From Kordia algicida OT-1 (lineage in GTDB: Bacteria > Bacteroidota > Bacteroidia > Flavobacteriales > Flavobacteriaceae): 64,000 nt of DNA. The position numbers and the translations under genes were made by a program. A model generated the notes under the pieces. It saw nothing but the letters and a program-made list of their open reading frames with translations, was not told the origin of the DNA and searched no databases. This document shows, piece by piece, positions 1,358 through 33,158 of the stretch (the stretch's first letter is position 1; the number at the start of each line of letters is the position of its first letter). The DNA is taken from the NCBI RefSeq assembly GCF_000154725.1, contig NZ_DS544873.1, forward strand, positions 1,900,727 to 1,964,726. Direction: 5' to 3'.

Positions 1358-2519
1358 ATTTAGAAGCAAATAATTTCACATCTTCTTCGGTGACTTCTTT
1401 TCCTCCGAGAATTATTAATCGTTCTATTACATTTCGTAATTCTCTAATGTTTCCTGTCCAATCGTATTCTTGTAAGAGTTTGACAGCTTTGTCTGAAAAT
1501 TTCTTTGCTGCTGTTCCTTGCTCTGTCGCAATTTTTCCTGCAAAATATTCTATCAATAAAGGAATATCTTCTCTACGATCGTTTAATGCAGGTACTTTGA
1601 TTAAGATAACTGCCAATCTGTGATATAAATCTTCACGGAATTTTCCATCAGCAATTTCCTTTTTTAAGTCTTTATTCGTTGCCGCAATGACACGCACATT
1701 TACTTTGATGTCTTTGTCACTACCAACTCGTTGTACTCTGCTTTCTTGCAATGCACGCAATACTTTAGCTTGCGCCGAAAGACTCATATCTCCAATTTCA
1801 TCTAAGAAAATTGTACCGCCATTGGCTGCTTCAAATTTTCCTGCCCTGTCTTTGTTTGCACTTGTAAATGCTCCTTTTACATGACCAAAAAGTTCACTTT
1901 CTATCAATTCACTAGGAATTGCCGCACAGTTTACTTCAATCATCGGTCCTTTGCTTCGGTCACTTTTTTGATGCAACCAATGGGAAACTAATTCTTTTCC
2001 TGTTCCGTTTGGTCCTGTAATTAGTACACGTGCATCTGTTGGTGCTACTTTTTCAATGATATCTTTGATTTGTTGAATTTCATCAGAATCCCCAATCATT
2101 TCATAGTTCTTACTGACTTTCTTTTTTAATCGTTTGTTTTCAACAACCAATTCTTTTCTGTCAAGCGCATTTCGAACTGTATTGAGTAATCTGTTTAAAT
2201 CTGGCGGTTTTGATATGTAGTCAAACGCTCCAATTCGCATCGTATTTACAGCGGTATCTAAATCTCCGTGACCAGAAATCATCACAAAAGGTGTTTCAGG
2301 TTTAATTTTTTTGGCTGCTTCCAATACTTCCACACCATCCATTTTTGGCATTTTTATATCACACAGTACCAAATCATAATCTTCCTTTTTTACCATTTCA
2401 ATTCCAGCCAATCCATCTTCCGCTTGCGACACTTCATACGTATCATTTTCTTCTGAAAGGATTTTCACTAATACTCTACGAATCGCCGATTCGTCTTCTA
2501 TTACTAATATTTTTGGCAT
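1356..2519 (-). CDS. NtrC-type sigma-54 response regulator lacking a DNA-binding domain
   Basis: The protein has 387 residues from the ATG at 2517-2519. That start is preferred over an upstream in-frame ATG because it begins directly at the receiver domain and lies one base after the upstream stop codon. Residues 1-120 form a receiver with acid pair D9/E10, phospho-acceptor D54 and K104. Residues 140-370 form an AAA+ sigma-54 interaction domain with Walker A GPNGTGKE (169-176), GAFTSA (216-221) in place of the usual GAFTGA, Walker B GGTIFLDE (234-241) and FREDLYHRL. The chain ends just after the AAA+ lid, so the C-terminal Fis-type helix-turn-helix is absent. It is the last gene of an operon with MscS and an ABC exporter; no histidine kinase is adjacent. 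Confidence 0.9.
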   Translation of the reverse strand: MPKILVIEDESAIRRVLVKILSEENDTYEVSQAEDGLAGIEMVKKEDYDLVLCDIKMPKMDGVEVLEAAKKIKPETPFVMISGHGDLDTAVNTMRIGAFDYISKPPDLNRLLNTVRNALDRKELVVENKRLKKKVSKNYEMIGDSDEIQQIKDIIEKVAPTDARVLITGPNGTGKELVSHWLHQKSDRSKGPMIEVNCAAIPSELIESELFGHVKGAFTSANKDRAGKFEAANGGTIFLDEIGDMSLSAQAKVLRALQESRVQRVGSDKDIKVNVRVIAATNKDLKKEIADGKFREDLYHRLAVILIKVPALNDRREDIPLLIEYFAGKIATEQGTAAKKFSDKAVKLLQEYDWTGNIRELRNVIERLIILGGKEVTEEDVKLFASK

Positions 2520-2520
2520 A

Positions 2521-3354
2521 TTATTCTTTTTTTGCATTATAAACATGCACATCGCGCTGAGGAAATGGAATGCTTATGTTGTTTTCATTAAATGTGTTGT
2601 ATACTTTATATCGCAATCTGCTTTGTACTGCTGGCAAATGAAAGCTATCTCCAATATAAAAATGTAGCTTAAATTTCAAAGCACTATCTCCAAAATCTTC
2701 AAAAAAGATCGTCGGTTTTGGCTCGTTTAAAATTGCTTGATCTTGCACTGCAATTCCCAAAAGTAACGCTTTTACCAAATCAATATCCGTACCATACGCA
2801 ACTCCAACACTAATAGATTCACGCGTCATCACATCATTTTGTGTCCAGTTGTATAGTATTTCACTTAAAAACTTATGATTTGGAATGACTAAAATCTTTT
2901 CATCCTGTGTTATTGCTTTGGTGGTACGCAAACCAACTTCGGTAATTTTCCCTACTTTTTTGTCGATTTCAATAACATCATTTACTGTAACGGTTCGATC
3001 TACCAAAATAAAAATTCCAGAAATGATATCCTGAAATAGTTTTTGCATTCCGAGTCCAATACCCACAAATAATGCTGTAGAAGCTGCCAAAAGTGCTGTG
3101 ATTTGCACACCAGAAGCATCTAACGACATCACAATGACTACAGAAAATATAAAGTATTTTAAAAATGTAAAGACCGTTTTGAAACGATCTTTTCCTTCGG
3201 CATCTAATCTTCTTGTAACCGCAATTCGGGTGAATTTTAAAACCACTTGTGTTACGACAAGTACTACGATTAAAACTAGAACAGCTTTTATCGTTATATG
3301 TATCGTATCGTTTGAGTAGATAGAACGGTCTAAAAATTCCTGAAGTGCGTCCAT
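2521..3354 (-). CDS. MscS-family mechanosensitive ion channel
   Basis: A 277-residue inner-membrane protein. There are three hydrophobic segments near residues 18-42, 63-82 and 85-115. The last contains the Gly/Ala-rich pore helix of MscS (STALFVGIGLGMQKLFQDI), followed by the beta-domain motif VDRTVTVNDVIEI and a soluble C-terminal domain. The length matches short MscS/YbdG-like channels, which release small solutes on membrane tension. The gene lies 5 bp downstream of the ABC permease and 1 bp upstream of the sigma-54 regulator, so all four genes are probably co-transcribed. The family assignment is firm; the gating stimulus is inferred. Confidence 0.9.
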   Translation of the reverse strand: MDALQEFLDRSIYSNDTIHITIKAVLVLIVVLVVTQVVLKFTRIAVTRRLDAEGKDRFKTVFTFLKYFIFSVVIVMSLDASGVQITALLAASTALFVGIGLGMQKLFQDIISGIFILVDRTVTVNDVIEIDKKVGKITEVGLRTTKAITQDEKILVIPNHKFLSEILYNWTQNDVMTRESISVGVAYGTDIDLVKALLLGIAVQDQAILNEPKPTIFFEDFGDSALKFKLHFYIGDSFHLPAVQSRLRYKVYNTFNENNISIPFPQRDVHVYNAKKE

Positions 3355-3359
3355 TTACA

Positions 3360-4679
3360 TTAGTATTTCAACCATTTAAATATTTCCTTGTAACTTGGTT
3401 TTTTTCCATACATTAAAATACCTACACGGTAAATTTTTGAAGCAAACCAAACAGTTCCCGTGAAGGAAATATACAAAATTGCCACCGAAAGTAATTGTTG
3501 CCATAATGGAACTCCAAAAGGAATTCGCATCAACATTACAACTGGCGATGTAAATGGAATGAACGAAAATACCGTAGCCACCGTTCCGTGCGGATCTTCC
3601 AATACCGTAAATCCTCCAACATATACAGACAGCATGAGTGGCATAATGATAGGCATCATAAATTGTTGTGTGTCTGTTTCATTGTCTACTGCCGCACCAA
3701 TAGCAGCATATAACGAACTGTATAGTAAATATCCACCAATAAAAAATATGAAGAAAGCGGCGATTAAATTTGCAAGTGGCAAACTTTGAATGATTTCTGT
3801 GATCTGCATTTGCATGTCTACATTTTCTCCTTGCGCCATTAAAGCTTGTTGTTGTTCTGCTTGCATTCCGCTAAAATCTACTCCAAAAACTAAGGAAATA
3901 ATCGCAATCATAATTCCGCCTAAAACAATCCACATTAAAAACTGTGTAACTCCTGCTAATGAGGTTCCAATGATTTTTCCCATTAAGAGCTGTACAGGTT
4001 TTACCGAAGAAATGATAACTTCAATAATTCTGTTGGTTTTTTCTTCTATCACACTACGCATAATCATGTTTCCGTAGATGATGATAAACATGAAAAGTAA
4101 ATATCCAGCTGCCAAACCAAAACCTAATTTGGAATAATTGATAAGTTTAGAACTGCGTTCTCCCGAAAAAGTTTCTTGCCCGATAGAAATATCCATTTGA
4201 GAACTTTCTACCAATTTGACATCTACATTATTATTTATAAGCGCTTCTTCTGTGAGTTTTTCGTTTAAAATTCGTTCTAAACGAGAAATAAAGTTAGATG
4301 AAGGAGAATCTTCTGAGTAAAATTTTATTTGTTTCGCAATTTCCTCCATGGAAGCCATTTGACGAATGTGCAACAAACCGTATTCTTCTGCTTCTTGCAC
4401 CTGCTTTTTTGCTTCTTCTAAAGAAATATTTGGCAAAAAATTATATTTCGTATATACATCTTCACTCACTTTTTCGGTTTTAAAAACTTCCGAAATTGTT
4501 CCTGTTTCATCCAAAATAGAAATGGTGCGTTCTTTATTATTGTTTAATTGTGTTAAGTAGACAATTAACGTGATAAGTCCGATCATAATCAACGGACTCA
4601 AAAATGTCATAATAATAAAGGACTTGTTTTTAACTTTCGTTAAGTATTCTCTTTTGATAATTAGTGGTAAATGATTCAT
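3360..4679 (-). CDS. ABC-2 type transporter permease, NatB-like
   Basis: The 439-residue permease starts MNHLPLIIKREYLTKVKNKSF, the typical NatB-type N-terminus. One membrane helix at about 20-40 is followed by a ~140-residue extracytoplasmic domain rich in charged helices. Five or so membrane segments follow from about residue 185 (LGFGLAAGYLLFMFIIIYG, then the GKIIGTSLAGVTQFLMW region). It sits 4 bp downstream of its ATPase and would form a two-component exporter with it. NatAB exports sodium in Bacillus; for this protein the substrate is unknown. Confidence 0.9.
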   Translation of the reverse strand: MNHLPLIIKREYLTKVKNKSFIIMTFLSPLIMIGLITLIVYLTQLNNNKERTISILDETGTISEVFKTEKVSEDVYTKYNFLPNISLEEAKKQVQEAEEYGLLHIRQMASMEEIAKQIKFYSEDSPSSNFISRLERILNEKLTEEALINNNVDVKLVESSQMDISIGQETFSGERSSKLINYSKLGFGLAAGYLLFMFIIIYGNMIMRSVIEEKTNRIIEVIISSVKPVQLLMGKIIGTSLAGVTQFLMWIVLGGIMIAIISLVFGVDFSGMQAEQQQALMAQGENVDMQMQITEIIQSLPLANLIAAFFIFFIGGYLLYSSLYAAIGAAVDNETDTQQFMMPIIMPLMLSVYVGGFTVLEDPHGTVATVFSFIPFTSPVVMLMRIPFGVPLWQQLLSVAILYISFTGTVWFASKIYRVGILMYGKKPSYKEIFKWLKY

Positions 4680-4683
4680 AGTC

Positions 4684-5613
4684 CTAATTATTGTTTTCTA
4701 CGGTTTGAATAAAGATATCGTTGACACTTGGAATTACTTCTACAAAATGATTCACTTGTCCTTGCGAAGTGAGATACGATAATAAATCGTTGGAAGTATC
4801 GCCATTTTCTAGTTTGATGTTTACTTTTAAATCGTCATCAATAGATTTAAAATTGGCATCTGATAATTCAAACTTGTCGCTTAATACATTTCGTAATTGT
4901 TGATTGTTTCCTGCGGTAATTCCAACTTGGTACGTATTGCTTTTATATTGACGTTTTACGTCGGTGAGTTTTCCGTCCAATACTTTATTTGATTTGTGAA
5001 TTAATGCAATATGATCGCACATTTCTTCTACAGATTCCATTCGGTGTGTAGAAAAGATAACTGTGGCACCTTCGTCACGAAGTTGAATGATTTCGTCTTT
5101 AATTCTGTTGGCATTTATAGGATCGAATCCGCTAAACGGTTCATCAAAAATTAGAAGTTTTGGCTGATGCAACACGGTTACGACAAACTGTATTTTTTGC
5201 GCCATTCCTTTTGATAATTCTTGAATTTTCTTGTTCCACCAATCTGAAATTTCAAATTTTTCAAACCAATATTTCAAGCGCATTTTTGCTTCCGATTTGC
5301 TCAATCCTTTCAATTGCGCCAAATACAGTGCTTGTTCGCCAACTTTCATTGATTTGTACAAACCGCGTTCTTCTGGCATGTAGCCAATATCTTGAATATG
5401 GAGTTGTTTTAATGGTTCACCATCAAGCAAAACTTTTCCTGCGTCTGGTGCTGTAATTTGATTGATGATTCGGATGAGTGATGTTTTTCCTGCTCCATTT
5501 GGACCGAGAAGTCCGAAGATACTTCCTTTAGGCACATCAATAGAAACTTTATTTAATGCAGTATAATCACCATATTTTTTAACGACGTCTTTCGCCTGGA
5601 GAATTGAACTCAT
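4684..5613 (-). CDS. ABC transporter ATP-binding protein, NatA-like
   Basis: The 309-residue ATPase has Walker A GPNGAGKT (37-44), a signature LSKGMAQ (133-139), Walker B LLIFDEP (153-159) and an H-loop in IFSTHRM. A ~80-residue C-terminal extension (DUF4162-like) follows the ATPase core, as in NatA homologues. It is the first gene of the minus-strand operon ending at 1356. I see no strong promoter consensus in the 185 bp upstream, which hold the dnaJ terminators. It powers the permease encoded 4 bp downstream. Confidence 0.92.
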   Translation of the reverse strand: MSSILQAKDVVKKYGDYTALNKVSIDVPKGSIFGLLGPNGAGKTSLIRIINQITAPDAGKVLLDGEPLKQLHIQDIGYMPEERGLYKSMKVGEQALYLAQLKGLSKSEAKMRLKYWFEKFEISDWWNKKIQELSKGMAQKIQFVVTVLHQPKLLIFDEPFSGFDPINANRIKDEIIQLRDEGATVIFSTHRMESVEEMCDHIALIHKSNKVLDGKLTDVKRQYKSNTYQVGITAGNNQQLRNVLSDKFELSDANFKSIDDDLKVNIKLENGDTSNDLLSYLTSQGQVNHFVEVIPSVNDIFIQTVENNN

Positions 5614-5681
5614 TTAGATTTTTTTATATACGTAATTATATTGGGTATTTTGTTACAACTGGGTGTAAATATAAAGCAAAA

Positions 5682-5709
5682 CCCACCCTTAAAAATAATC
5701 AAGGATGGG
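5682..5709 (-). terminator. Second terminator hairpin after dnaJ
   Basis: CCCACCCTT (5682-5690) and AAGGATGGG (5701-5709) pair with one G-T wobble. Reading the minus strand, the hairpin is followed by TTTTG. It probably backs up the hairpin at 5733 and isolates the ABC operon from grpE-dnaJ read-through. Confidence 0.65.
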
Positions 5710-5732
5710 AAAAAATTGCTATGAAAAAGAAA

Positions 5733-5759
5733 AAATTACTAGCTGGTTTCAGCCAGTAA
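5733..5759 (-). terminator. Terminator of grpE-dnaJ
   Basis: On the minus strand, TTACTGGCT pairs with AGCTAGTAA around a short loop, and a run of T follows. The hairpin lies 40 bp after the dnaJ stop. Confidence 0.75.
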
Positions 5760-5798
5760 CTTATCAAAGATAGTTTTTTTTTCGTAATACCAAAAGAA

Positions 5799-6938
5799 TT
5801 ACGAAAACATGTCTTTGACTTTTTCAAAAAATGACTTATCGCTTTTCTCTGGATTTGGAATGAAATTTTCTTCTTCTGCCATTTTTTCAAAGAAACTTCG
5901 TTGTTCTTTTGTCAATGTTTTTGGCGTCCAAACGTTGATGTGCACTAGCAAATCGCCTTTTCCATATCCGTTGATACTCGGAATTCCCTTTCCGCGTAAG
6001 CGCAATATTTTTCCAGATTGTACTCCTGAATCTATTTTGATTCTAACTTTTCCTGTTACGGTATCAATTTCTTTTGAACTTCCTAGCGCAGCTTCAGAAA
6101 AACTAATGTATAAGTCGTAATGAAGATTGTCGCCTTCACGCTTTAAGAAATCGTGTTCTTTTTCTTCAATGGCAACTAATAAGTCTCCTGCGATTCCGTT
6201 TCCTGGCGCTTCGTTTCCTTTTCCTGATACTTTTAATTGCATGCCTTCTACTACTCCCGCAGGAATTTTGATGGCTACTGTTTCTTCTGCAACTTTTAAT
6301 CCTTGCCCGTCTGCTCCTGCTGGTCTTTTGTCAATTACTTGACCAGCACCACCACAAGTACTACAGGTTGTTGAGGTTTGCATTCTACCAAGAATTGTAT
6401 TGGTAATTCGCGTCATTTGCCCAGAACCATTACAGGTTTCACAGGTTTTATAGCTTACACCAGCCGCTTGCACTTTACGACGAACTTTTACTTTTTTCTC
6501 TACTCCGTTTGCGATTTCTTCTAACGTAAGTTTTACACGAATTCTTAGGTTGCTTCCTTTTACGCGTCGTTGTCTTCCGCCGCCACCGCCGCCAAATCCA
6601 CTGAATCCGCCACCGCCGCCGCCAAATGCGCCACCGAAGATATCACCAAATTGACTAAAGATGTCGTCCATGTTCATGCCGCCACCAAAACCACCGCCGC
6701 CGAAGCCGCCGCCGTTTTCAAATGCCGCATGTCCATATTGATCGTAGCGTGCTTTTTTGTTGTCGTCGCTTAATACTTCATACGCTTCTGCTGCTTTTTT
6801 AAACATTTCTTCCGCTTCTTTATCATCTGGATTTTTGTCAGGATGATATTGAATTGCTTTTTTTCGGTATGCTTTTTTTATTTCAGCTGCCGAAGCTCCT
6901 TTGCTAATGCCTAATATTTCGTAATAATCTTGTTTCAT
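5799..6938 (-). CDS. dnaJ: Chaperone DnaJ (short-zinc-finger form)
   Basis: The 379-residue Hsp40 co-chaperone stimulates the DnaK ATPase and delivers unfolded clients. The J domain (1-70) has HPD at 32-34. A long Gly/Phe-rich linker runs from about 75 to 122 and makes the DNA locally G+C-rich. Then come a zinc-binding region, the C-terminal substrate domains and a dimerisation tail. Only two CxxCxGxG motifs are present (C166/C169 and C192/C195), against four in E. coli DnaJ. I believe this shortened zinc module is common in Flavobacteria. It is co-transcribed with grpE, 66 bp upstream; dnaK is not nearby. Confidence 0.97.
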
Positions 6939-7004
6939 TTTCCTTTAAAACTTGTTTCAAAAAGATCGTTTTGTTGTTGCAAACAACTTTAAAATGCTTT
7001 TTTA

Positions 7005-7568
7005 TTATTGTCCTACAACTACTTTAGGGTAACGAATTACCTTGTCTCCTAGCGTATATCCTTTTTCAAGTACATCGATGATTTTTCCTTTCATATCATC
7101 AGATGGCGCAGGAATTTGTGTTACCGCTTCATGATCTTCTGCATCAAACGTGTCTCCAGCTTTTACTTCAACTTCGCCCAAACCTTTTGCTTTTAGTGTT
7201 TCTCGTAGCTTGTTGCTAATGAGTTCGACACCTTTTTTTAGGTCTTCTGCATCAGTTTTGGCAATTTCTGTCAAGGCTCTGTCAAAATCATCTAAAACTG
7301 GCAACATGGCAACGACCACATCTTTGCTTGCCGTTTTGAATAACTCTACACGTTCTTTGCTTGTTCTCTTTTTATAATTTTCAAATTCAGCAAATAGACG
7401 TAAAAACTTGTCTTTTTCTTTTGCTAATTCTTCTTGTAGTTTTGCTTCCGCAGAAACTTCTTCTACTGTATTTTCAGTTGTTTCAGCCGTTTTTGTTTCT
7501 TCTTGTGTCGCTTCAGTTTGCGCCTTTGGCTGTTCCTTTTCTGTTGTATGATCGTTTTTTTTGCTCAT
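7005..7568 (-). CDS. grpE: Nucleotide exchange factor GrpE
   Basis: GrpE removes ADP from DnaK. I take the ATG at 7566-7568 (MSKKNDHTTEKEQ, 187 residues) rather than an ATG 11 codons upstream, because it fits the usual start and leaves a sensible leader after the promoter. An acidic, low-complexity N-terminus (to about residue 50) precedes a long coiled coil with FLRLFAEFENYKKRTSKER. The C-terminal beta-wing domain ends GYTLGDKVIRYPKVVV, the GrpE signature. It is the first gene of the grpE-dnaJ operon. Confidence 0.96.
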   Translation of the reverse strand: MSKKNDHTTEKEQPKAQTEATQEETKTAETTENTVEEVSAEAKLQEELAKEKDKFLRLFAEFENYKKRTSKERVELFKTASKDVVVAMLPVLDDFDRALTEIAKTDAEDLKKGVELISNKLRETLKAKGLGEVEVKAGDTFDAEDHEAVTQIPAPSDDMKGKIIDVLEKGYTLGDKVIRYPKVVVGQ

Positions 7569-25627: not shown

Positions 25628-26641
25628 TTATCGAGTAAATTTTTTAACAATACTCCTACGGTGACGAATCATGTCGGTTTGAAGTTGCGAATCGTCATTG
25701 ACAAAGTGTTTTAGTAAGCTGAGTACTTCACTGTTATTATTGTTTTTTGAAATTAATTCATACGCCATTTCCTGAATGTCTTCCTTAGGAGCAATGTCTC
25801 TGTTGTATTCTAACTTTAAAACTTTTAAGAAGTTATACTCATTACGATTGTTTACCATTTCTTTTTTGAAATTGGCTAATACCGTTTGCAAACTTGCCTG
25901 ATTGTTGTAGTTTGCAAAGAAATTATTGGCACAATTGACAGGATCTTTTTGATCTTTCCAACCTTTGATTAGCAATTCGTTAGCCGTATTTGTATCGTTC
26001 ATTTTCTTACGACAGATCAACGCAGCTTTTACGTATTGATAGTTGAGTTTGTAATCATCAACCACAATTTGATAGTGATGTTGTGCTTTTTTGGTATCTT
26101 TTAGTTTGGTATAAATGTCACCAACTTTTTCGTTCATTTCCAATTCGCTATACAATTTGATTGACTTTGTATACGAGCGCGCCATTTCATAGCATTCTGC
26201 GGCATCTTCTTTGCTATGACATCGTTTTAGATATACACGCGCCGCTTCGTTGTATAAATGTCCTTCTTTTAAGATATTGGCTGCTCGATACGGATTGCGC
26301 AATAGTTTCATTTGAATATATGCGGCTTTTTTGTATTGTTTCTTTTCGATGAAATCGTCACAGAGTTTTTCATAACGATTCATAAGTGTTTGAAATTGAC
26401 TTTCGCCTACCGTAGAACTTCCACCGCCAAAACTACCTTTCGAACTGTTGTCAAAAAGTGCATTTATCAAAACTGACGTCACAAAAAATACCACTACCAA
26501 AATGATAAATGCCCAGATGAAATCCATCAAACTTCCATAAATGATGGATGTGATAATTACATATACTAATTTAAAAAACAGGACGAAGACGATAAAGTAA
26601 ATCAGCTTCGCATGAAACTTGCTTTCTTTCTGATTACTCAT
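25628..26641 (-). CDS. Membrane-anchored TPR-like protein of the MoxR-vWA cluster
   Basis: The 337-residue protein has two N-terminal membrane helices (about 11-31 and 37-61), a short GGGSS linker, then helical repeats of TPR type: KKAAYIQMKLLRNPYRAANIL, EAARVYLKRCHSKEDAAECY, and KVGDIYTKLKDTKKAQHHY. It has no catalytic motif. Its start overlaps the end of the preceding gene by 8 bp, so it is the last member of the six-gene operon. It probably anchors or scaffolds the cluster at the inner membrane; that role is inferred. Confidence 0.82.
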   Translation of the reverse strand: MSNQKESKFHAKLIYFIVFVLFFKLVYVIITSIIYGSLMDFIWAFIILVVVFFVTSVLINALFDNSSKGSFGGGSSTVGESQFQTLMNRYEKLCDDFIEKKQYKKAAYIQMKLLRNPYRAANILKEGHLYNEAARVYLKRCHSKEDAAECYEMARSYTKSIKLYSELEMNEKVGDIYTKLKDTKKAQHHYQIVVDDYKLNYQYVKAALICRKKMNDTNTANELLIKGWKDQKDPVNCANNFFANYNNQASLQTVLANFKKEMVNNRNEYNFLKVLKLEYNRDIAPKEDIQEMAYELISKNNNNSEVLSLLKHFVNDDSQLQTDMIRHRRSIVKKFTR

Positions 26642-28055
26642 CGATGATTGATTTGTTTTTTCTGATTAATAAATATAAGAGTCGAACAACTATAGAACCC
26701 ATGATTAATATAAATAATATCCCTGCACCATCCATTGCCAACATTGGGTAAAATAGATAGATTAATAATCCTACAATGGTTCCAAAAGCCAATAGTTTTC
26801 CTTTGGTTGATAGCTCGTCACCACCAAAATAAAAGCCACTTTCTTTTTCTTCTTCTTCCGTAAAAGAAAATATTTCACTTTCTTCTGGTAAATCTAACCA
26901 TGAAGGTGATGACGATTTGTTTTTTACTGCTTTTTGTGATTTTCCTTTTTGATATTGCGCCAAATACAGAATTAAAAGTACTAATACTACAATGGCAAAT
27001 ACCAACAGAATATTTTCAACAATATTACTGTCTGGCGTTACTGTAATAGGTTTGTAATTGTTTTGTGAACGATTCCAATTTTGGCTGTTAACATCATCCA
27101 TATCTGTACTTTCAACCACCATTTCTTCTGTAGCTGGTGTTTCTGTGATGGTTTCGTCATCAATTTCCGAACTGAATGTCGTTTCGCCCGCAACAACTTC
27201 AATCTGCTTTTTATTTACTTGTTGAATCACTTCATATCCTATCCAAAATACGGCGATAATCGCGATGATACCGATAAGCGTTTTTAGTGTACTACTGCCC
27301 TTCTCAGACAGTTCACCAAAACCAAGAGATTCAAAAAAGTTACTTTTAAATTTGTATTTCGCAAAAGCTTTTCCGCGTGAAGTTCCCATCATATCTAACG
27401 GAACTGCCATTTTTAGCGCAGCATCTGGATTTCTTTCTAAGTATTTTAAATATTTTTCTACTTCTTTGTTGTTTCCCTGCAAGACCTTTTTCATATCAAA
27501 AGGCACATCTTTTGGATCTACAGGTTCATCTCCAAACGGATTTTCTAAGGCTTTTTCTTCTTCTTTTTCCTCAATTTCTACACTAAACGCCGTGACCTTC
27601 GAAGGAATGTTGACACCTTTTGCAGGAGTTTCAATCGTAGGAAAATGTGCTTCTGGAGCTTGCAAAATGGTTTCCCATCTCAATTGTTCTTTGAGTTCTA
27701 TCAATCCTAATTCGTGATGAAAAAAGTGTGGTTTCCCCTGAAACATTTTTGCAAATTCTTCATCTGTCAACGCCATATTTAAGCGTGTATTATCTGGAAT
27801 GTAAAAACCTGTATTTGCTTTTTGAACACAAGCATTGTTTGCAATATCGAGATTTTTGTGTGTGCTTTTAAAAATAATCAAAATTCCTGAAATACTGTTG
27901 GCATCCAATCCCGGACACGGATAAATGATACAATCTGAAAGTTTGAGTTGCATACGTGTAATTTCTGCCAACCATGCTTTTGGAGAAGCGTGCTTGATAA
28001 AAATTCCACATCTTGGATGCGGATTTACGTCTGTATGTACCAATCCTAACTTCAT
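26634..28055 (-). CDS. bpX-type companion protein with membrane segments
   Basis: The 473-residue protein has a soluble N-terminal domain (about 1-140, CPGLDANSISGILIIFKS and FHHELGLIELKEQLRWE), an acidic linker, and a KYLKYLERNPDAALKMAVPLD helix. Membrane helices follow near 258-276 and 350-370, and a hydrophobic pair at the C-terminus. I recognise no enzyme family. Position and layout fit the bpX accessory proteins of MoxR-vWA-beta-propeller systems; the exact bpX number is not assigned. It overlaps its upstream neighbour by 4 bp and its downstream neighbour by 8 bp. Confidence 0.8.
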   Translation of the reverse strand: MKLGLVHTDVNPHPRCGIFIKHASPKAWLAEITRMQLKLSDCIIYPCPGLDANSISGILIIFKSTHKNLDIANNACVQKANTGFYIPDNTRLNMALTDEEFAKMFQGKPHFFHHELGLIELKEQLRWETILQAPEAHFPTIETPAKGVNIPSKVTAFSVEIEEKEEEKALENPFGDEPVDPKDVPFDMKKVLQGNNKEVEKYLKYLERNPDAALKMAVPLDMMGTSRGKAFAKYKFKSNFFESLGFGELSEKGSSTLKTLIGIIAIIAVFWIGYEVIQQVNKKQIEVVAGETTFSSEIDDETITETPATEEMVVESTDMDDVNSQNWNRSQNNYKPITVTPDSNIVENILLVFAIVVLVLLILYLAQYQKGKSQKAVKNKSSSPSWLDLPEESEIFSFTEEEEKESGFYFGGDELSTKGKLLAFGTIVGLLIYLFYPMLAMDGAGILFILIMGSIVVRLLYLLIRKNKSIIDE

Positions 28056-30451
28056 GAATCAAGGATATTTTGTAAAAATGGATTTAGATATTTTAGTCTG
28101 AATGATGCCACTCGTATTCTTTCTTGATGAAACTCTCCTGCATAGAAATAATTATTTCCTGCAAATTCATCTTCGGTTGCAAGCGCTATTTTTATTCCAA
28201 TATACGAAGCCAAATAGAATGTAGGTATTTCATCGTTCGCACTTTCAAATTTAATGATTCCGTTTTTATCAATCGTAATTTTACTTCCGTTTGAAAATTC
28301 GCCAAGCATTTTACGCTTGTTCACATATGTTGTATACTTATAATCTAGCTTTTCTTCTTCTTCCGAAGAAATCATTCTATATTCGATATAATCTGCTCTT
28401 GTTTCCAACTTGTGCTTGCCGTTAAAAATCAACTCTAAGTCTGTAGTGATCGTAATTGACGTGATTTTTGACAGTACAGAGCCTTCAAAATACGATAGCT
28501 GGTTTTCTACATAATTTTTGTATTGCTTTTGCAATCCCGCACTTGGTGTTACTACTGATTGATATGTTTTTTCATATAAGTCAAATTTTGCATACGACGG
28601 AACATCACTGTAATATTTCTTTGTAACTAAATAGATTTCGTCATCATAACAAACCAAATTTTTCAATGATACGCTATTATACGCGCTAAAATCTCCTGTG
28701 AAGACATAAGTTTTAGTTTCTGTTTTAAAAACCAATTCTTTATTTGCGTTTAAGTATGATATCATCAATTCATCTTGATATAATACTGCGTTTTTTTGTT
28801 GTTTGATTCCTGTGATAAACCGAATTTCTTTACGAATCATTTCAAAACCTTTACTACGCATATCTGTCTTGAATAAGTCTCCGTTTTTTCGCAAAACATA
28901 GGTGCAATTTTCATCTGAAAAATACGCAACTCCTCGTGTAGGAAAACCATATAAGATAGGATAATTTATTGTATTTTGACCTTCTGCTTTTTGCATTGAT
29001 TTCTTTCGATTTTTTCTTCGACATGTTGGATTTGCCCAAAGTTCTGCCAATGGCAATTGAATGTGTTTTGATAAGCGTTTGGAACCACTTTTCATTTTAT
29101 ACACATCAATATTTCCTTGATTATCTGCCGTAATTACACCACCAAATTTGTCATGATATTTGTTGAATATTTTACGAATATTGGCATGATGTAATGTTTT
29201 TGGTGCTGTAAAAAAGGTAATTTCAATATTTTCTTCTTCACACTGATTGATGAATTCTTCAATTGCATCAGAGGCATCCAATGCTGGCGATGTGATTTGC
29301 AAACCTTCCAAGATATTTACTTTCGTATCAAACTTTAAATCCTGAAAAGTATCTGCCAAAGCGTACAACTGAAAACTCATTTCATTTTTTGGATGATGAA
29401 CAAGCGCAAAAGCCGTTGCATACAGTAATATTTTGGGCGTTCCCCAACTTTTTATGGTGGTATCGATTAAGAATATACGTGTGCGTAAATCTTCTTCTGG
29501 AGTCGTTTCGCGACGAATGAATAGTGCTTCTTTGTTGGCGATTCTGTGTAAAAAGACCAAATCGTCATTGGCGAATTCTGAGATTAATATATTATCGAAT
29601 TTTCCTTTGTTTGTGATATCTGAAATTCCACCAAGCGGCATTTCTCCAGGATGTACGTAATGCATTGGCAACTGAATTCCAGACCATAATCGCTTGATTA
29701 AGCTTCCCATGAAAAACGTTTTTGGTTCTTCAATAAGTTCCTGAACCAAATCTGGATCTTCGCTAAAGTATTCCACTTCCGTATCTTCAGGTTCAATTGG
29801 AATATCTTCAATTTTCAACCACGCTTTTAGCAATGCATTTACCGTTGGATATCGTTTGTGCAATAACGCTAACGCATTAATATCTTTACTCAACGCCGAA
29901 ACTGTAATGTCCATTTTTTCACTACACGCATTCAGCTCAAAGTTTTTATTTTTGATTGTGGTTAAGATTTCATCCGTATATTTTGAACTCAAACTGTGAT
30001 TTGCCGTTTGAAATAGGAAGACAAATAAATCTACTCTGTTGTTTCCCTTTTTGTATTGTGCTGGCAACGTAATGAGGTTTTGCAAAAAGGCTTGTGCAGC
30101 AGCAAAATCAATATGATCTACATTTGGAAAGTTGGTGTGCTGTGTTAATATTTCACTGAAAATTTCATCAATAGCAACACGAACCTCACCTGTATTTGTT
30201 GCTAAAAACGTGAGTATTATTGCACCAAATGGCGGAAAACCTACAGGAGCAATGGATTGCAATACTTCTTCAATTTGCTCTTTGTAAGCAATCGTCATTC
30301 CATCAGGAATAGAAATACAATTGATGCCGCCCGAAAAGTCATGAATATCTTCAATGACAGTACCACTAAACATATAATCAATCTCCCATTGCCAGAAATA
30401 ATCTGTATAGGATTGAAAGTAATATGCTGCTTTTGTCTGCGTTTCGCTCAT
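28052..30451 (-). CDS. vWA / putative beta-propeller protein of the MoxR cluster
   Basis: The 799-residue protein falls into three parts. Residues 1-230 are mostly helical. Around 320-480 there is a Rossmann-like vWA domain: RIFLIDTTIKSWGTPK with D330, then KILLYATAFALVHH and ENIEITFFTAP. Its metal site reads DTTIK, not DxSxS, so it is probably metal-free. From about 490 to the end come short beta-repeats (YPILYGFPTRGVAYFSDE, NAVLYQDELMISYLN) typical of a propeller. It is the likely effector or adaptor moved by the MoxR ATPase. It overlaps the next gene by 4 bp. Confidence 0.82.
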   Translation of the reverse strand: MSETQTKAAYYFQSYTDYFWQWEIDYMFSGTVIEDIHDFSGGINCISIPDGMTIAYKEQIEEVLQSIAPVGFPPFGAIILTFLATNTGEVRVAIDEIFSEILTQHTNFPNVDHIDFAAAQAFLQNLITLPAQYKKGNNRVDLFVFLFQTANHSLSSKYTDEILTTIKNKNFELNACSEKMDITVSALSKDINALALLHKRYPTVNALLKAWLKIEDIPIEPEDTEVEYFSEDPDLVQELIEEPKTFFMGSLIKRLWSGIQLPMHYVHPGEMPLGGISDITNKGKFDNILISEFANDDLVFLHRIANKEALFIRRETTPEEDLRTRIFLIDTTIKSWGTPKILLYATAFALVHHPKNEMSFQLYALADTFQDLKFDTKVNILEGLQITSPALDASDAIEEFINQCEEENIEITFFTAPKTLHHANIRKIFNKYHDKFGGVITADNQGNIDVYKMKSGSKRLSKHIQLPLAELWANPTCRRKNRKKSMQKAEGQNTINYPILYGFPTRGVAYFSDENCTYVLRKNGDLFKTDMRSKGFEMIRKEIRFITGIKQQKNAVLYQDELMISYLNANKELVFKTETKTYVFTGDFSAYNSVSLKNLVCYDDEIYLVTKKYYSDVPSYAKFDLYEKTYQSVVTPSAGLQKQYKNYVENQLSYFEGSVLSKITSITITTDLELIFNGKHKLETRADYIEYRMISSEEEEKLDYKYTTYVNKRKMLGEFSNGSKITIDKNGIIKFESANDEIPTFYLASYIGIKIALATEDEFAGNNYFYAGEFHQERIRVASFRLKYLNPFLQNILDS

Positions 30452-30454
30452 AAG

Positions 30455-31180
30455 TTATCGTGACAATCGGTAGCCGCTGATTGTAAGTTTTTTAATGTTT
30501 TCTTGTGATAGTCTAAAATACGTACTATCTGGATTTACAATGATGTAATCGTTAGTATTTTGATTGATAATATTGTTGAAATAACTACTTAATTCTGGAT
30601 ATTCTAAATCGTAACCTGTTGGAAGTAGAAAGTTTTGTACTTGCCAATAGGTTTTCCCTGGAATGGATAATAATGGCGCTCCAAATAACAATGCTTTTTT
30701 GTTGATGATGGTCCACTGAATGTGTTGCAAACGAATGGCTGGCATTTTCGGAATGACCATATCTAGCGTTTCTAAAGTAACCAATTGTGCTTTTGGCGTT
30801 CGTTCTACCGTTGAAGGTATAATGTTGAATTGAATCTTTTCGTGAACACCAAAATAGTTAAAGTTATATTCGGGCGTTTCTACAGGCAATGCTTTGTCTA
30901 TTGGCGACCACAGCATGGAAGTTTTTAAACGTTCTTCGGGCAAGTTTCCTCCTAAGAGAAATAATGCATTGTCACGCTGAAAGTATATTTTTTTGAATGG
31001 AATGCTACGTATTTCTGGACTGTGCAATTGATGTGGCGCAATACCTCGCACCCAAATATCGTCCATATCCGTTGCCATTCGCAAGGATTTCCAAACACGA
31101 ATTTGCGCTAGTTTTTCTTTGTATTTTGAAGGCAATCGCAACCAATATTCGGTTACGCCTTGTGTAAGATCTGTTTCCAC
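30455..31180 (-). CDS. bpX-type protein following MoxR
   Basis: A soluble, mostly beta protein of about 241 residues with no signal or catalytic motif that I recognise; TEYWLRLPSKYKEKL near the start and GKTYWQVQNFLLPTGYDLE near the end. I favour the GTG at 31178-31180, giving a 28-bp overlap with the MoxR gene. An ATG at 31232-31234 in the same frame would force an 82-bp overlap. The gene ends 3 bp before the vWA gene. It fits the small bpX accessory proteins of these clusters; the function is unknown. Confidence 0.75.
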   Translation of the reverse strand: METDLTQGVTEYWLRLPSKYKEKLAQIRVWKSLRMATDMDDIWVRGIAPHQLHSPEIRSIPFKKIYFQRDNALFLLGGNLPEERLKTSMLWSPIDKALPVETPEYNFNYFGVHEKIQFNIIPSTVERTPKAQLVTLETLDMVIPKMPAIRLQHIQWTIINKKALLFGAPLLSIPGKTYWQVQNFLLPTGYDLEYPELSSYFNNIINQNTNDYIIVNPDSTYFRLSQENIKKLTISGYRLSR

Positions 31181-32286
31181 AATTGATCTATTTCCGTGTT
31201 TATGTATTGTTTTTTCTGCTGATCTTTTACCCAATCGGTACGATTTTGCAGGTAGCGCAATTTGTCTTTAATGACGTTTAATTCTTGCAGAGACAATTCT
31301 GCGGAAGCGAACTTATTTTTTAAGTTTTCCACTTCATTCATCAACTCTTTTGGGTTTGGTGCTTTGTTGAAAAACGCTTGCGGATGTGCTTTTTCGTCAG
31401 TTTCTTCCTTTTCTATCAATGCATTTACTGTTGCTTGAAGCGTTTCTATTTGTTCTTCCGTGCTCCATATATATTTTAAAACCCAAAGATCGGAAAGAAT
31501 GGCTTCTGTTCGATCGCAGAGCATTGCACTTGCCGCCACCAAGTTTTGCATTTTTACCGCACGTCTGTCCGACACTTCTATTCCTGTGTTTCGCAAACTG
31601 TGAATCAACGCAATGTACGAACTTCGAATTGATGCCAAATCAACCTCTTTTACTTTGCTTTGTAAACCTTTGATTTCCTCTGGAGAGATTAACGTTTGTG
31701 CTGATTTTTCGTTTCGTTCTAGCTTCCAACCTGCTTGCAATACTTCTTCTAAGCGATCTGGTTTTACATTGTCTACTTTTAATCGAATTAGAAAACGATC
31801 AAGTAAAGCTGCCAACGCTTCGTCTTCTGGTAATTGATTACTCGCGCTGATGAACATTAGCGCAGGCAATTTTTTTGTTTCTTTTCCTCGACGGAATATT
31901 TTTTCGTTCAACGCCATGAGTAAACTGTTTAGAATCGCTGAATTTGCATTGAATATTTCGTCTAAAAACACCAAGGAAGCTTCTGGAAGCATTCCGTCTG
32001 TGTTGGTGACCAATTCTCCTTCTTTTAGCAATCGGATGTCTAGCGGACCAAAGATTTCGTTTGGTTCGGTAAATCGTGTCAATAGATAATCAAAGTTAAT
32101 TCCGCCAATAACATGACTTGATAATTGTTTTACAATCGCACTTTTTGCGGTTCCTGGAGGTCCTAAAAGGAATACGTTTTCTCTCGCCAAGAGACCAATT
32201 CCTAATAGATCGATGACTTCATCTTTACCTACGAAGATGTTTTTGATTTCATCGAGTATTGCGCGTAATTTTATTGTTTCGTTCAT
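31153..32286 (-). CDS. MoxR/RavA-family AAA+ ATPase
   Basis: The 377-residue ATPase has Walker A GPPGTAKS (42-49), the MoxR insert RFTEPNEIFGPLDI (71-84), Walker B LVFLDE (105-110), sensor-1 asparagine N150 in FISASNQLPED, and an arginine-finger region LLDRFLIRL (161-169). A RavA-like lid with DRRAVKMQNLVAASAML follows, then a coiled C-terminus. MoxR ATPases remodel vWA partners, as RavA does with ViaA. Its ATG overlaps the stop of the upstream gene by 4 bp. Confidence 0.93.
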   Translation of the reverse strand: MNETIKLRAILDEIKNIFVGKDEVIDLLGIGLLARENVFLLGPPGTAKSAIVKQLSSHVIGGINFDYLLTRFTEPNEIFGPLDIRLLKEGELVTNTDGMLPEASLVFLDEIFNANSAILNSLLMALNEKIFRRGKETKKLPALMFISASNQLPEDEALAALLDRFLIRLKVDNVKPDRLEEVLQAGWKLERNEKSAQTLISPEEIKGLQSKVKEVDLASIRSSYIALIHSLRNTGIEVSDRRAVKMQNLVAASAMLCDRTEAILSDLWVLKYIWSTEEQIETLQATVNALIEKEETDEKAHPQAFFNKAPNPKELMNEVENLKNKFASAELSLQELNVIKDKLRYLQNRTDWVKDQQKKQYINTEIDQLWKQILHKA

Positions 32287-32978
32287 AGTGTTTTTGCTTC
32301 AGAAATAAACGCTCTCCAAAAGTGATTTGTGTGTTCTCCTAAGTGAATAGCGACGTTTTCGTGAATGATTTTGTGTGCCGTTAAGCCAATATCTTTTTTT
32401 TCAATAACTCTGTCTATAAATAATGTTCGGAAACAATTATTTTGAAAGAGTGTTGCCAATTGTTCTTCATTGATTTCAAGTTCTAGGTCGTGACCAATTG
32501 CCGAATATTGAAATCCTTGCATGTTTTTTTTGAGTATTTTGATGAGCCAATCGTCAAAGTCAATGCTTTCTAATTCTTTGATAATGAAGGGTAAAAATCG
32601 CAGTGATATGTCGGCTGAAAGTTGTACTTCTGGCGACAATTTACCTTTGAACGCTTCGAAAAACTTCCCGAGATTTTTTGGTTCTTCCAATCGATGTGCC
32701 AAAAACTGTGCTGCATAATAGATTGTTTTTGCTCCCCAAACGGCAGCTTCTCTGTGAAATTTTGGTGCTTCAAACGGGTAATTAAGTGATTCATTTTCAT
32801 ATTCTTGTGCTAAAAAATCAGCTACATCATTGAGTTCACTTGCGCTTATTTTTGGTTGGTTTGTGTATAGCACAAATTGTCCCGAAGTTCGTAAATGATG
32901 AATGGTTTGTAGTATGTTATTTTGTATGCTCAAGAAGGTAAAAAAGTGATGACTTGTGTGTACATCGGTTGGTAACAC
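32283..32978 (-). CDS. First gene of the MoxR-vWA cluster, bpX-type helical protein
   Basis: The 231-residue protein is largely alpha-helical, soluble and without signal sequence (VADFLAQEYENESLNYPFEAP, AVWGAKTIYYAAQFLAHRLEE). I assign no family beyond its constant position ahead of the MoxR gene, with which it overlaps by 4 bp. It probably belongs to the bpX accessory set. Upstream, 32979-33084 holds only A+T-rich sequence, with no full promoter consensus. Confidence 0.75.
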   Translation of the reverse strand: MLPTDVHTSHHFFTFLSIQNNILQTIHHLRTSGQFVLYTNQPKISASELNDVADFLAQEYENESLNYPFEAPKFHREAAVWGAKTIYYAAQFLAHRLEEPKNLGKFFEAFKGKLSPEVQLSADISLRFLPFIIKELESIDFDDWLIKILKKNMQGFQYSAIGHDLELEINEEQLATLFQNNCFRTLFIDRVIEKKDIGLTAHKIIHENVAIHLGEHTNHFWRAFISEAKTL

Positions 32979-33084
32979 TCAAAAGAACGAAAATTTTAGG
33001 TAAGAAGCAATTTTTGTTTTTTGTTTTTCGTTGGTTTGTTTTTTGTGAATTTGTTTTAAAGTATAGATGTTACTTTTTAATAAA

Positions 33085-33126
33085 AAAATCTCCCAAAAAG
33101 TCTAACACAACTTATTGGGAGATTTT
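33085..33126 (-). terminator. Terminator of the lytic transglycosylase
   Basis: AAAATCTCCCAA and TTGGGAGATTTT form a perfect 12-bp stem. Just beside it, 33129-33157 is a run of GAATTC-centred words (AATTCAGAATTCTGAATTC), a small palindromic repeat. Confidence 0.85.
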
Positions 33127-33158
33127 CTAATTCAGAATTCTGAATTCAGAATTTTAAA

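Follow-up and report, generated by a model that had tools for sequence, protein, structure and literature searches.

Organization of the gene cluster

Six open reading frames are found on the minus strand at positions 25628-32978 of the window, the 64,000-nt stretch of Kordia algicida OT-1 DNA analysed here, and an ORF check returned the coordinates of the initial annotation (Table 1). The six genes belong to the group of beta-propeller MoxR-vWA ternary systems that a 2020 study set out (PMC7159879). In Pfam searches, five of the six proteins match the families bpX4, bpMoxR, bpX2, bpX0 plus bpX1, and bpX3, with scores of 122-336 bits against cut-offs of 24-27; bpX1 additionally scores 63 bits. 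The gene order is identical in all 98 complete loci that were compared. With curated families matched in five of the six proteins and this order kept throughout, the cluster is not a product of chance. The Pfam matches and an AlphaFold2 model of the fourth protein (see below) bear out the MoxR-vWA-propeller (bpX) family call of the initial annotation.

Four of the five gene junctions overlap, by 4 bp (bpX4/MoxR), 28 bp (MoxR/bpX2), 4 bp (799-residue protein/bpX3) and 8 bp (bpX3/TPR). The value of 28 bp applies if bpX2 starts at the GTG at 31180; the longest bpX2 reading frame reaches 31234, starting at a TTG further upstream, and the 28-bp overlap recurs in the Kordia relatives. A 3-bp gap separates bpX2 from the gene for the 799-residue protein, and the earlier description of six genes overlapping by 4-28 bp holds for the other junctions. 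The fixed stoichiometry that had been read from the overlaps does not follow; they suggest translational coupling. Intergenic promoters and terminators were discarded as a lead, their counts being close to those of shuffles. The bpX4 protein, which the initial annotation described as helical, and the bpX2 protein are most likely constant core subunits of the proposed complex.

Table 1. Genes and domains of the cluster, with positions in the window.
Feature	Position	Strand	Evidence
Gene 1, bpX4, 231 aa from GTG at 32978	32283..32978	-	PF19920 237 bits, residues 22-224; first gene in 98/98 complete loci
Gene 2, bpMoxR AAA+ ATPase, 377 aa	31153..32286	-	PF20030 336 bits, AAA_5, AAA_lid_8; Walker A GPPGTAKS
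Gene 3, bpX2, GTG start 31180 preferred	30455..31180	-	PF19918 263 bits; start codon read; 28-bp overlap in Kordia relatives
Gene 4, 799 aa: bpX0, proposed docking linker, vWA, propeller, bpX1	28052..30451	-	PF19915, PF19917; AlphaFold2; Foldseek
bpX0 domain, gene 4 residues 51-209	29825..30301	-	PF19915 122 bits
Proposed MoxR-docking linker, gene 4 residues 251-323	29483..29701	-	Conservation and low pLDDT
vWA-like domain, gene 4 residues 324-442, MIDAS incomplete	29126..29482	-	Model topology
Beta-propeller, gene 4 residues ~500-715, ~4 blades	28307..28954	-	AlphaFold2 strands; Foldseek propeller matches
bpX1 domain, gene 4 residues 718-796	28064..28300	-	PF19917 63 bits
Gene 5, bpX3 (residues 2-172) and 4 predicted membrane segments, 473 aa	26634..28055	-	PF19919 127 bits; hydropathy
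Disordered-looking loop between gene 5 membrane segments 1 and 2	27033..27215	-	Kordia identity; composition
Gene 6, 2 predicted membrane segments and TPR superhelix, 337 aa	25628..26641	-	Hydropathy; fused relatives

The nearest solved structure to the MoxR protein in a search of the PDB is RavA (155 bits). The protein misses the RavA equivalog cut-off, with 190 bits compared to 681. Its mean identity among 10 Kordia is 91%, with a dN/dS of 0.05.

The 799-residue protein

The AlphaFold2 model of the 799-residue protein has a mean pLDDT of 85.5 and a pTM of 0.46, and the latter value leaves the relative placement of the domains uncertain. Both a vWA-like domain and a beta-propeller are visible in the model, as the initial annotation had anticipated, and the Foldseek matches of the model include propellers, integrin heads and vWA proteins. 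No Pfam family lies above its cut-off in residues 210-717. About four propeller blades can be read from the strand list of the model. The N-terminal part of the protein is α-helical and the C-terminal end is β, based on the secondary structure of the model and the bpX0 and bpX1 matches. Two weak Ro-like Foldseek matches (Deinococcus Ro, rank 35; a Gordonia phage Ro-like protein, rank 26) are perhaps driven by the vWA domain, and a profile search of the PDB for a Ro/TROVE-like N-terminal half gave nothing convincing (best E 0.18). In Kordia ALOHA, gene 4 is split into two open reading frames.

The best-conserved stretch of the protein is formed by residues 251-323, with a mean consensus of 0.75 among 74 relatives, compared to 0.53 for the vWA domain and 0.33 for the propeller; identity in this stretch is 89-99% among Kordia. 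Much of it (residues 266-268, 270-285, 287-291, 293-296 and 312-318) has pLDDT values below 50. A conserved linker of low model confidence directly beside the vWA domain counts for docking of MoxR, and this stretch is probably where MoxR would dock. At the metal site of the vWA-like domain, Asp330 and Ser/Thr332 are present in all 74 relatives and position 334 is Lys or Arg in 72 of them. No second Asp is conserved at the metal site across the 74, and the MIDAS is incomplete.

The third component

Genes 5 and 6 are the halves of one 'third component', with gene 6 as the carboxy half; the bpX3 and TPR genes are fused into one protein in 55 of the 98 loci. Hydropathy predicts membrane segments at 259, 345, 421 and 446 of the gene 5 protein and at 16 and 41 of the gene 6 protein. 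The 'two-part membrane protein' of the initial annotation thus corresponds to bpX3 followed by four such segments, and its 'membrane-anchored TPR protein' to gene 6. For gene 6, no Pfam family is above its cut-off and the SNAP/TPR matches are weak, and a TPR fold is present in the model of a fused relative. Among the 50 Foldseek matches listed for this model are LapB, SNAPs and TPR-type proteins, the rest being further chains with helical repeats or from large complexes; no listed match is attributable to bpX3 itself. A C-terminal propeller is seen neither in gene 6 (Pfam) nor in the fused model. We also considered whether bpX3 or gene 6 conceals an enzyme or a toxin; the searches gave only bpX3, weak TPR/SNAP and generic membrane matches, and this candidate was rejected.

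Predicted membrane segments occur mainly in one clade, that of Kordia, Flavobacterium and Chryseobacterium, and 29 of the 98 loci have no predicted segment at all. Among the 10 Kordia, no part of the system changes faster than the third component (gene 5 mean identity 53%, dN/dS 0.29). The change is greatest in the gene 5 loop, where the mean pairwise identity in the 25-residue windows of residues 276-350 is 15-26%; this loop would lie on the periplasmic side. It is short and of low complexity in Kordia and has about 190-205 residues in Chryseobacterium. We considered a hypervariable recognition loop here. The rapid change is real, yet the loop is short and of low complexity, and relaxed constraint is the simpler explanation.

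Distribution and selection

The bpX2 family occurs in 10 of 11 Kordia genomes, in 108 of 118 from Chryseobacterium and in 17 of 200 from Flavobacterium, and bpX in 10 of 395 genomes of a phylum-level sample; every positive genome holds one bpX2 match. Among the 17 Flavobacterium genomes, 14 are of at least 5.0 Mb. The patchy distribution expected earlier therefore holds in the phylum and in Flavobacterium, but the cluster is near-core and single-copy in Kordia and Chryseobacterium. The site between LT and TPR188 holds other gene sets in some Kordia species. The cluster is absent in the Kordia genome G297, where a tblastn search for a relic gave no convincing match (best E 0.057).

The dN/dS values of the components in Kordia are 0.05-0.29, indicating purifying selection on average, though they are rough estimates given the high dS (means 0.89-1.61) and the saturation of some pairs. 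The value for gene 4 is from nine of the 10 Kordia species, with the broken Kordia ALOHA copy left out. The bpX2 family was found in none of 50,697 phage records, and plasmid records gave one remote match (25% identity). With the PADLOC models, five of the six proteins have no match up to E 1, and MoxR has weak AAA-type matches only (best 8e-5). Family searches found no effector domain of known kind in the six proteins.

Genomic neighborhoods in relatives

In Chryseobacterium and in many Flavobacterium, the neighbors of the bpX cluster are tRNA genes and genes for RNA ligases, nucleases and Band-7 proteins. In one MAG as well, the cluster lies beside tRNA-array/RNA-repair genes; flanks vary across genera. 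At least three tRNA genes are located near the cluster in 24 of 26 Chryseobacterium-type loci and 14 of 26 Flavobacterium loci, compared to one of 35 other loci (the array is absent from 34 of the 35 scanned) and none of nine Kordia loci (from seven genomes). The island genes near the clusters of relatives include RNA ligases, a DEDD exonuclease, a YkuK RNase-H-like protein, cREC, Band-7 and a phosphoesterase, and in Flavobacterium there are neighbors of the WGR, SWIM and RNA-repair types, with one further gene matching RING weakly. Of 41 loci of other relatives, only five carry any of the island-family genes for which models were made.

An ATP-grasp-like island gene is found at E <1e-100 in 14 of the 17 bpX Flavobacterium and six of the 183 others (Fisher 2e-14, uncorrected for kinship), a limit chosen after the list was seen; at a limit of 1e-20 the counts are 15 of 17 and eight of 183 (Fisher 4e-15, likewise uncorrected). 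The linkage of bpX to the island may be one inherited arrangement within each genus. Islands also occur in the absence of bpX: tRNA genes are present in all 12 bpX-less loci examined, which had been chosen for an island gene.

The Kordia loci, including that in the window, have no tRNA or RNA-repair neighbors. The island exists in three Kordia (YkuK in three of 11 genomes, compared to 10 of 11 for bpX2), is more than 1 Mb from bpX in the genome of the window, and cREC is also found in the one Kordia that lacks bpX. An obligatory tie of bpX to the RNA-repair island is ruled out by Kordia, where the two are not co-distributed.

Comparison with known systems

Kaur et al. (2020; PMC7159879) describe these systems as their subsystem 4. 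There, bpMoxR often has a GXXXTAKS P-loop, a divergent vWA is followed by a ~4-bladed propeller in one protein, and about 62% of members have helical N-terminal and β C-terminal regions on the vWA component. The third component typically contains a variable globular part, a membrane segment, TPR and a C-terminal propeller, and a role in biological conflict is predicted. The Kordia cluster, also from the Bacteroidetes, shares the P-loop type (GPPGTAKS), the vWA and propeller in one protein with helical N-terminal and β C-terminal parts, the extra helical and mixed-fold genes, and a third component with a membrane segment and TPR. Unlike in the published description, its third component is split in two genes, with bpX3 as the globular part, and lacks a visible C-terminal propeller, the predicted membrane segments belong mainly to one clade, and the cluster is near-core and single-copy in two genera.

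According to the excerpt of PMC9489729, RavA works at the inner membrane with ViaA, its vWA partner, and the pair changes how sensitive cells are to aminoglycosides. The present system resembles E. coli RavA-ViaA in its MoxR, whose closest PDB chain is RavA, its vWA partner and its predicted membrane site. It differs in the propeller and incomplete MIDAS of the vWA protein, in the extra bpX2, bpX3, bpX4 and TPR subunits, and in a membrane link through a separate, predicted integral protein. TrcR represses the Anabaena trn operon, a translational-stress tRNA array, and likewise rtcB and a gene for a slipin (excerpt of PMC10272220, which names neither MoxR nor vWA). The islands beside bpX in relatives also combine an extra-tRNA array, an RNA ligase and Band-7/slipin, although this likeness concerns neighbors in other genera, outside the Kordia window.

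Proposed function of the system

We propose that a RavA-like MoxR ring would hydrolyze ATP and pull on residues 251-323, the conserved and partly disordered linker in the 799-residue protein. The pull would shift the vWA domain, with its incomplete metal site, together with the propeller and bpX1 parts, which would hold a client, and the outcome would be remodelling and release of this client or complex. The bpX3 domain and TPR superhelix would be the platform to which a client or partner is recruited. Six predicted segments would hold this platform at the inner membrane, with both soluble parts in the cytoplasm. The job would be a stress response at the membrane, with damaged translation or RNA machinery as the probable trigger, and not that of a cell-killing weapon. 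The lead toward RNA and translation comes from the tRNA-array neighborhoods of relatives and the ATP-grasp-like gene in Flavobacterium, and the window itself does not show this link. We give about an even chance to this reading as a whole, in which a complete ternary system of the beta-propeller type, with the membrane anchor seen in the clade of Kordia, Flavobacterium and Chryseobacterium, works and functions as described.

The conflict or defense role put forward in the initial annotation follows the published prediction (PMC7159879, section 22): MoxR-vWA would restrain the third component as long as no infection is detected, and the variable membrane component would then act against the invader or the membrane. 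The third component does change fastest, far ahead of MoxR, the cluster is patchy among Flavobacterium and mostly in their large genomes, its neighbors there include the WGR, SWIM, RNA-repair and RING-like genes, and the LT-TPR188 site varies in Kordia. However, the cluster is near-core and single-copy in two genera and under purifying selection on average in all components, its variable loop resembles a disordered linker rather than a domain, and over a quarter of the loci are free of predicted membrane segments. The negative results for effector domains, PADLOC and phage records, and the single remote plasmid match, weaken this role further. We regard it as possible but rather unlikely, and the evidence somewhat favors a stress chaperone over a phage weapon. 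Assembly of one particular membrane or envelope complex by a dedicated chaperone, in the manner of NorQ/NorD and CoxD/CoxE for their enzymes, is quite unlikely. Among MoxR-vWA pairs of known job, assembly or activation of complexes is a frequent task (PMC7159879, section 8; excerpt of PMC9976466), and the near-core status and purifying selection would suit it, but no constant enzyme or envelope gene was seen alongside the cluster across genera, with flanks varying among Kordia, Chryseobacterium, Flavobacterium and others, and the cluster is missing from 183 of 200 Flavobacterium and 385 of 395 phylum-sample genomes.

A bolder, and unlikely, extension of the stress-chaperone reading makes bpX the membrane-tethered chaperone module of a translation-rescue program, used in Flavobacteriales with the islands of spare tRNA genes, RNA ligases, DEDD and RNase-H-like nucleases, cyclic-phosphate receivers and Band-7 scaffolds. 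Its substrates at the inner membrane would be ribonucleoprotein complexes that are stalled or damaged, which it would remodel. The Kordia of the window would keep both parts, separated in the genome.

The bpX families carry the names of predicted domains only, and the published suspicion about them is conflict. The present data provide testable statements on the candidate MoxR-binding stretch, on which parts form one subunit and on the forms free of predicted membrane segments, and place the usual context of bpX in two genera in a tRNA-array/RNA-repair island. In view of this context, drugs that target translation and toxins that cleave tRNA are sensible to try first, alongside phages. A tRNA link, if true, would join the MoxR-vWA chaperones to translational stress, a connection new to the literature that we searched.

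Organization of the cluster

The region 25628-32978 is filled by six minus-strand ORFs, and the assignment of the cluster to a known kind, the MoxR-vWA-beta-propeller ternary (bpX) system, is well supported. The genes had been described as overlapping in the initial annotation. This holds for four of the five junctions (4, 28, 4 and 8 bp), but the third is a 3-bp gap. The MoxR is 90-93% identical to those of the nearest named loci, all from Kordia. In the 64-kb window, ARAGORN finds no tRNA and no Rfam family reaches its gathering score. A terminator-like inverted repeat followed by a T run is located at about 33080-33140, between the lytic transglycosylase (LT) gene and bpX4, and is absent from the consensus-scan list.

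Genes of the cluster (25628-32978) in transcription order, and neighbouring genes. Identity and dN/dS are mean pairwise values among 9-10 Kordia (4-9 species for neighbours).
Gene	Order	Strand	Pfam match (bits)	Identity (%)	dN/dS
bpX4	1	minus	237	74.0	0.17
bpMoxR	2	minus	336	91.1	0.05
bpX2	3	minus	263	69.7	0.19
799-residue protein	4	minus	bpX0 122, bpX1 63	61.2	0.20
bpX3 protein, membrane-rich carboxy half	5	minus	127	53.1	0.29
TPR protein	6	minus	no family above cut-off	61.7	0.19
carB (neighbour)				96.6	
TPR188 (neighbour)				90.5	
LT (neighbour)				84.3	
300-residue neighbour				61.7	0.21

The 799-residue protein

The AlphaFold2 model of this protein, built on 74 sequences, has a mean pLDDT of 85.5 and a pTM of 0.46, and its domains are therefore more trustworthy than their arrangement. 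The vWA and propeller domains proposed earlier both appear in the model: residues 324-442 are predicted to form a vWA-like alternating fold, and the propeller, which has about four blades as read from the strand list, spans residues about 500-715. A Foldseek search of the PDB gives nine matches with E ≤ 0.001; the structures found include propellers (Kelch, WD40, TolB) and integrin heads, with the Ro protein at rank 35. Kelch/WD40 proteins, vWA proteins and a Ro-like phage protein are found in the viral library.

The MIDAS motif has the form DxSxS. Its first Asp and the Ser/Thr are conserved in all 74 sequences, and position 334 is Lys or Arg in 72 of the 74; no second Asp is conserved among them at its assumed place. 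The two Asp residues of the MIDAS are described in PMC7159879. The most conserved stretch of the protein is residues 251-323 (0.75, versus 0.53 for the vWA), much of which is modelled by AlphaFold2 at pLDDT below 50. We infer that this stretch becomes ordered on MoxR.

The third component

The bpX3 and TPR parts are a single ORF in 55 of 98 complete loci and two ORFs in the other 43, including Kordia. By hydropathy, a crude method, the split form has 4+2 membrane segments in 41 loci, 3+2 in one and none in one, and the fused form has two in 19, one in eight and none in 28. In the branching order of a midpoint-rooted concatenated tree of 79 loci, Kordia, Flavobacterium, Chryseobacterium and Emticicia lie apart from the other relatives. 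Every complete locus of the former clade has at least one segment, and in the latter (34 complete loci) 29 have none and five have one.

In the model of a fused relative (L043; 73 sequences, mean pLDDT 84.5), a mixed bpX3 domain is predicted with confidence and two membrane helices with less; the TPR superhelix has matches to consensus TPRs, LapB and alpha-SNAPs. The component probably crosses the membrane an even number of times, which would place both soluble parts in the cytoplasm.

Distribution and evolution

A strong MoxR is found in 107 distinct loci. All six parts are present in 98 of them, with order and strand kept in every one; the remaining nine are incomplete from short stretches or contig ends. 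In family f7 of the order sample the MoxR is more distant (171-192 bits) and its frames span 517-559 residues; single-sequence searches of two such loci (L061 and L063) find no other cluster part. The bpX2 gene is found in 10/11 Kordia, 108/118 Chryseobacterium, 17/200 Flavobacterium and 10/395 genomes of the phylum sample, with exactly one match per positive genome. Genome size is 3.0-4.3 Mb in the ten Chryseobacterium that lack the gene. With bpX2 as query, the plasmid search gives one remote match (Hymenobacter, 25% identity) and the phage search none.

Glaciecola is a gammaproteobacterial genus. Records titled Glaciecola amylolytica (L086) and Thalassovita (L137, a MAG) carry the cluster. 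All others in their clade are from Bacteroidota; lateral transfer, contamination or mislabelling are the alternatives.

The Kordia cluster is located between the LT gene and the TPR188-carB pair in most stretches reaching both, and several species have extra genes on one flank or the other. In five loci (L158, L159, L160, L164 and L166) one to several large genes (about 800-974 residues) lie between LT and bpX4, with lipoprotein-like and small secreted-like partners; the two scanned are hybrid two-component regulators (HisKA-HATPase-receiver-AraC). In genome G297, LT and TPR188 are present and the cluster between them is absent, with no convincing relic at the site and only two ORFs, of 64 and 67 residues. 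These ORFs (L157 8471-9602, in this one-contig genome) have similar lysine-rich starts and Gly-Gly; they look like peptide precursors and have no Pfam match.

Comparison of identity and dN/dS indicates that the outer cluster parts are fast-changing, yet, except for gene 5, no more so than an ordinary neighbour. On average, the dN/dS values of 9-10 Kordia give no indication of positive selection. In a Kordia ALOHA metagenome record (L077/L166) an interruption splits the 799-residue gene into two ORFs, through either a pseudogene or an assembly error.

tRNA arrays and RNA-repair genes beside bpX

Flanks were clustered, and representatives annotated, for 26 Flavobacterium loci and 25 of Chryseobacterium type, among the latter one from another genus (L058).

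Gene families in bpX flanks. Flavobacterium counts are on the bpX strand; Chryseobacterium-type counts are perhaps lower bounds because the stretches end soon after.
Family	Flavobacterium	Chryseobacterium-type
DEDD exonuclease	22/26	8/25
ATP-grasp-like (label given here; no Pfam match)	17/26	
Band-7	15/26	
RLIG1-like RNA ligase	13/26	
Phosphoesterase	9/26	
YkuK RNase-H-like		22/25
cREC		16/25
DUF434/DUF5616		16/25
Rnl2-type ligase		6/25

In 15 Flavobacterium loci an exonuclease gene stops 123-511 bp ahead of the bpX4 ORF. ARAGORN predicts at least three tRNA genes in 24 of the 26 Chryseobacterium-type loci, the exceptions being L068 with none and L072 with one. Of the 26 Flavobacterium loci, 14 reach this number and 19 have at least one; it is also reached in one of 35 other loci (Flavobacteriales MAG L131; L145 has two) and in none of nine Kordia bpX loci from seven genomes. 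Of six loci scanned with Rfam, four carry bpX and two do not; together they give 52 tRNAs (31.6-75.6 bits). Among other relatives, many with short loci, 5/41 (L086, L121, L127, L131, L134) have any of the 22 modelled flank families.

Across 200 Flavobacterium genomes, the ATP-grasp-like gene is found at E <1e-100 in 14/17 with bpX versus 6/183 others (15 versus 8 genomes at E ≤1e-20). It lies at most about 22 kb from bpX2 in these 14 bpX genomes and far away in G884.

Twelve bpX-less loci, picked for carrying an island gene, all hold tRNAs (1-19 each) and repair genes, and the island therefore does not require bpX. Six bpX-less Chryseobacterium loci (L170-L175) have such islands; L173 (2-17652) carries Band-7, two DEDD exonucleases, phosphoesterase, Rnl2, cREC, ATP-grasp-like and YkuK genes with 19 tRNAs. 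YkuK is found in 114/118 Chryseobacterium, six of these without bpX2.

The Kordia bpX cluster has no tRNA or RNA-repair neighbours. The K. algicida genome has an island with 18 tRNA genes, Rnl2, YkuK and Band-7 outside the window (G000:C1:3063000-3082900, locus L186), more than 1.1 Mb from bpX. Its tRNA genes are at 1708-7036 of the locus, 13 of the 18 within 5517-7036, and the Rnl2-type RNA ligase, YkuK RNase-H-like and Band-7 genes follow from 7429 on. The order is the same in L187 (21 tRNAs) and L188 (25 tRNAs). Genomes G300 and G302 also have such an island. YkuK is found in 3/11 Kordia, with no match at E ≤1e-10 in the other eight, versus bpX2 in 10/11. No full-length relative of the ATP-grasp-like gene is found in Kordia, where 6/11 genomes give weak partial matches. 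The Kordia cREC is found away from bpX, and also in the bpX-less G297; no tRNA is found in four stretches with cREC away from bpX.

Discussion

The MoxR-vWA-beta-propeller subsystem was described by Kaur et al. (2020; PMC7159879, section 22), with a predicted role in conflict, by which the bpX cluster would be a biological-conflict system. Our best reading is a membrane-anchored MoxR-vWA chaperone, with a predicted role in stress. Results of open-access literature searches include no experiments on a bpX system. An RNA-repair or tRNA link is not mentioned among the linked systems of that paper (PMC7159879, section 23), and the same search results include no report of a link between bpX and tRNA arrays. 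The link may already be in print, the likeliest place being Burroughs and Aravind (2016) on RNA repair. Of the leads on bpX systems, the tRNA-array context is the most interesting.
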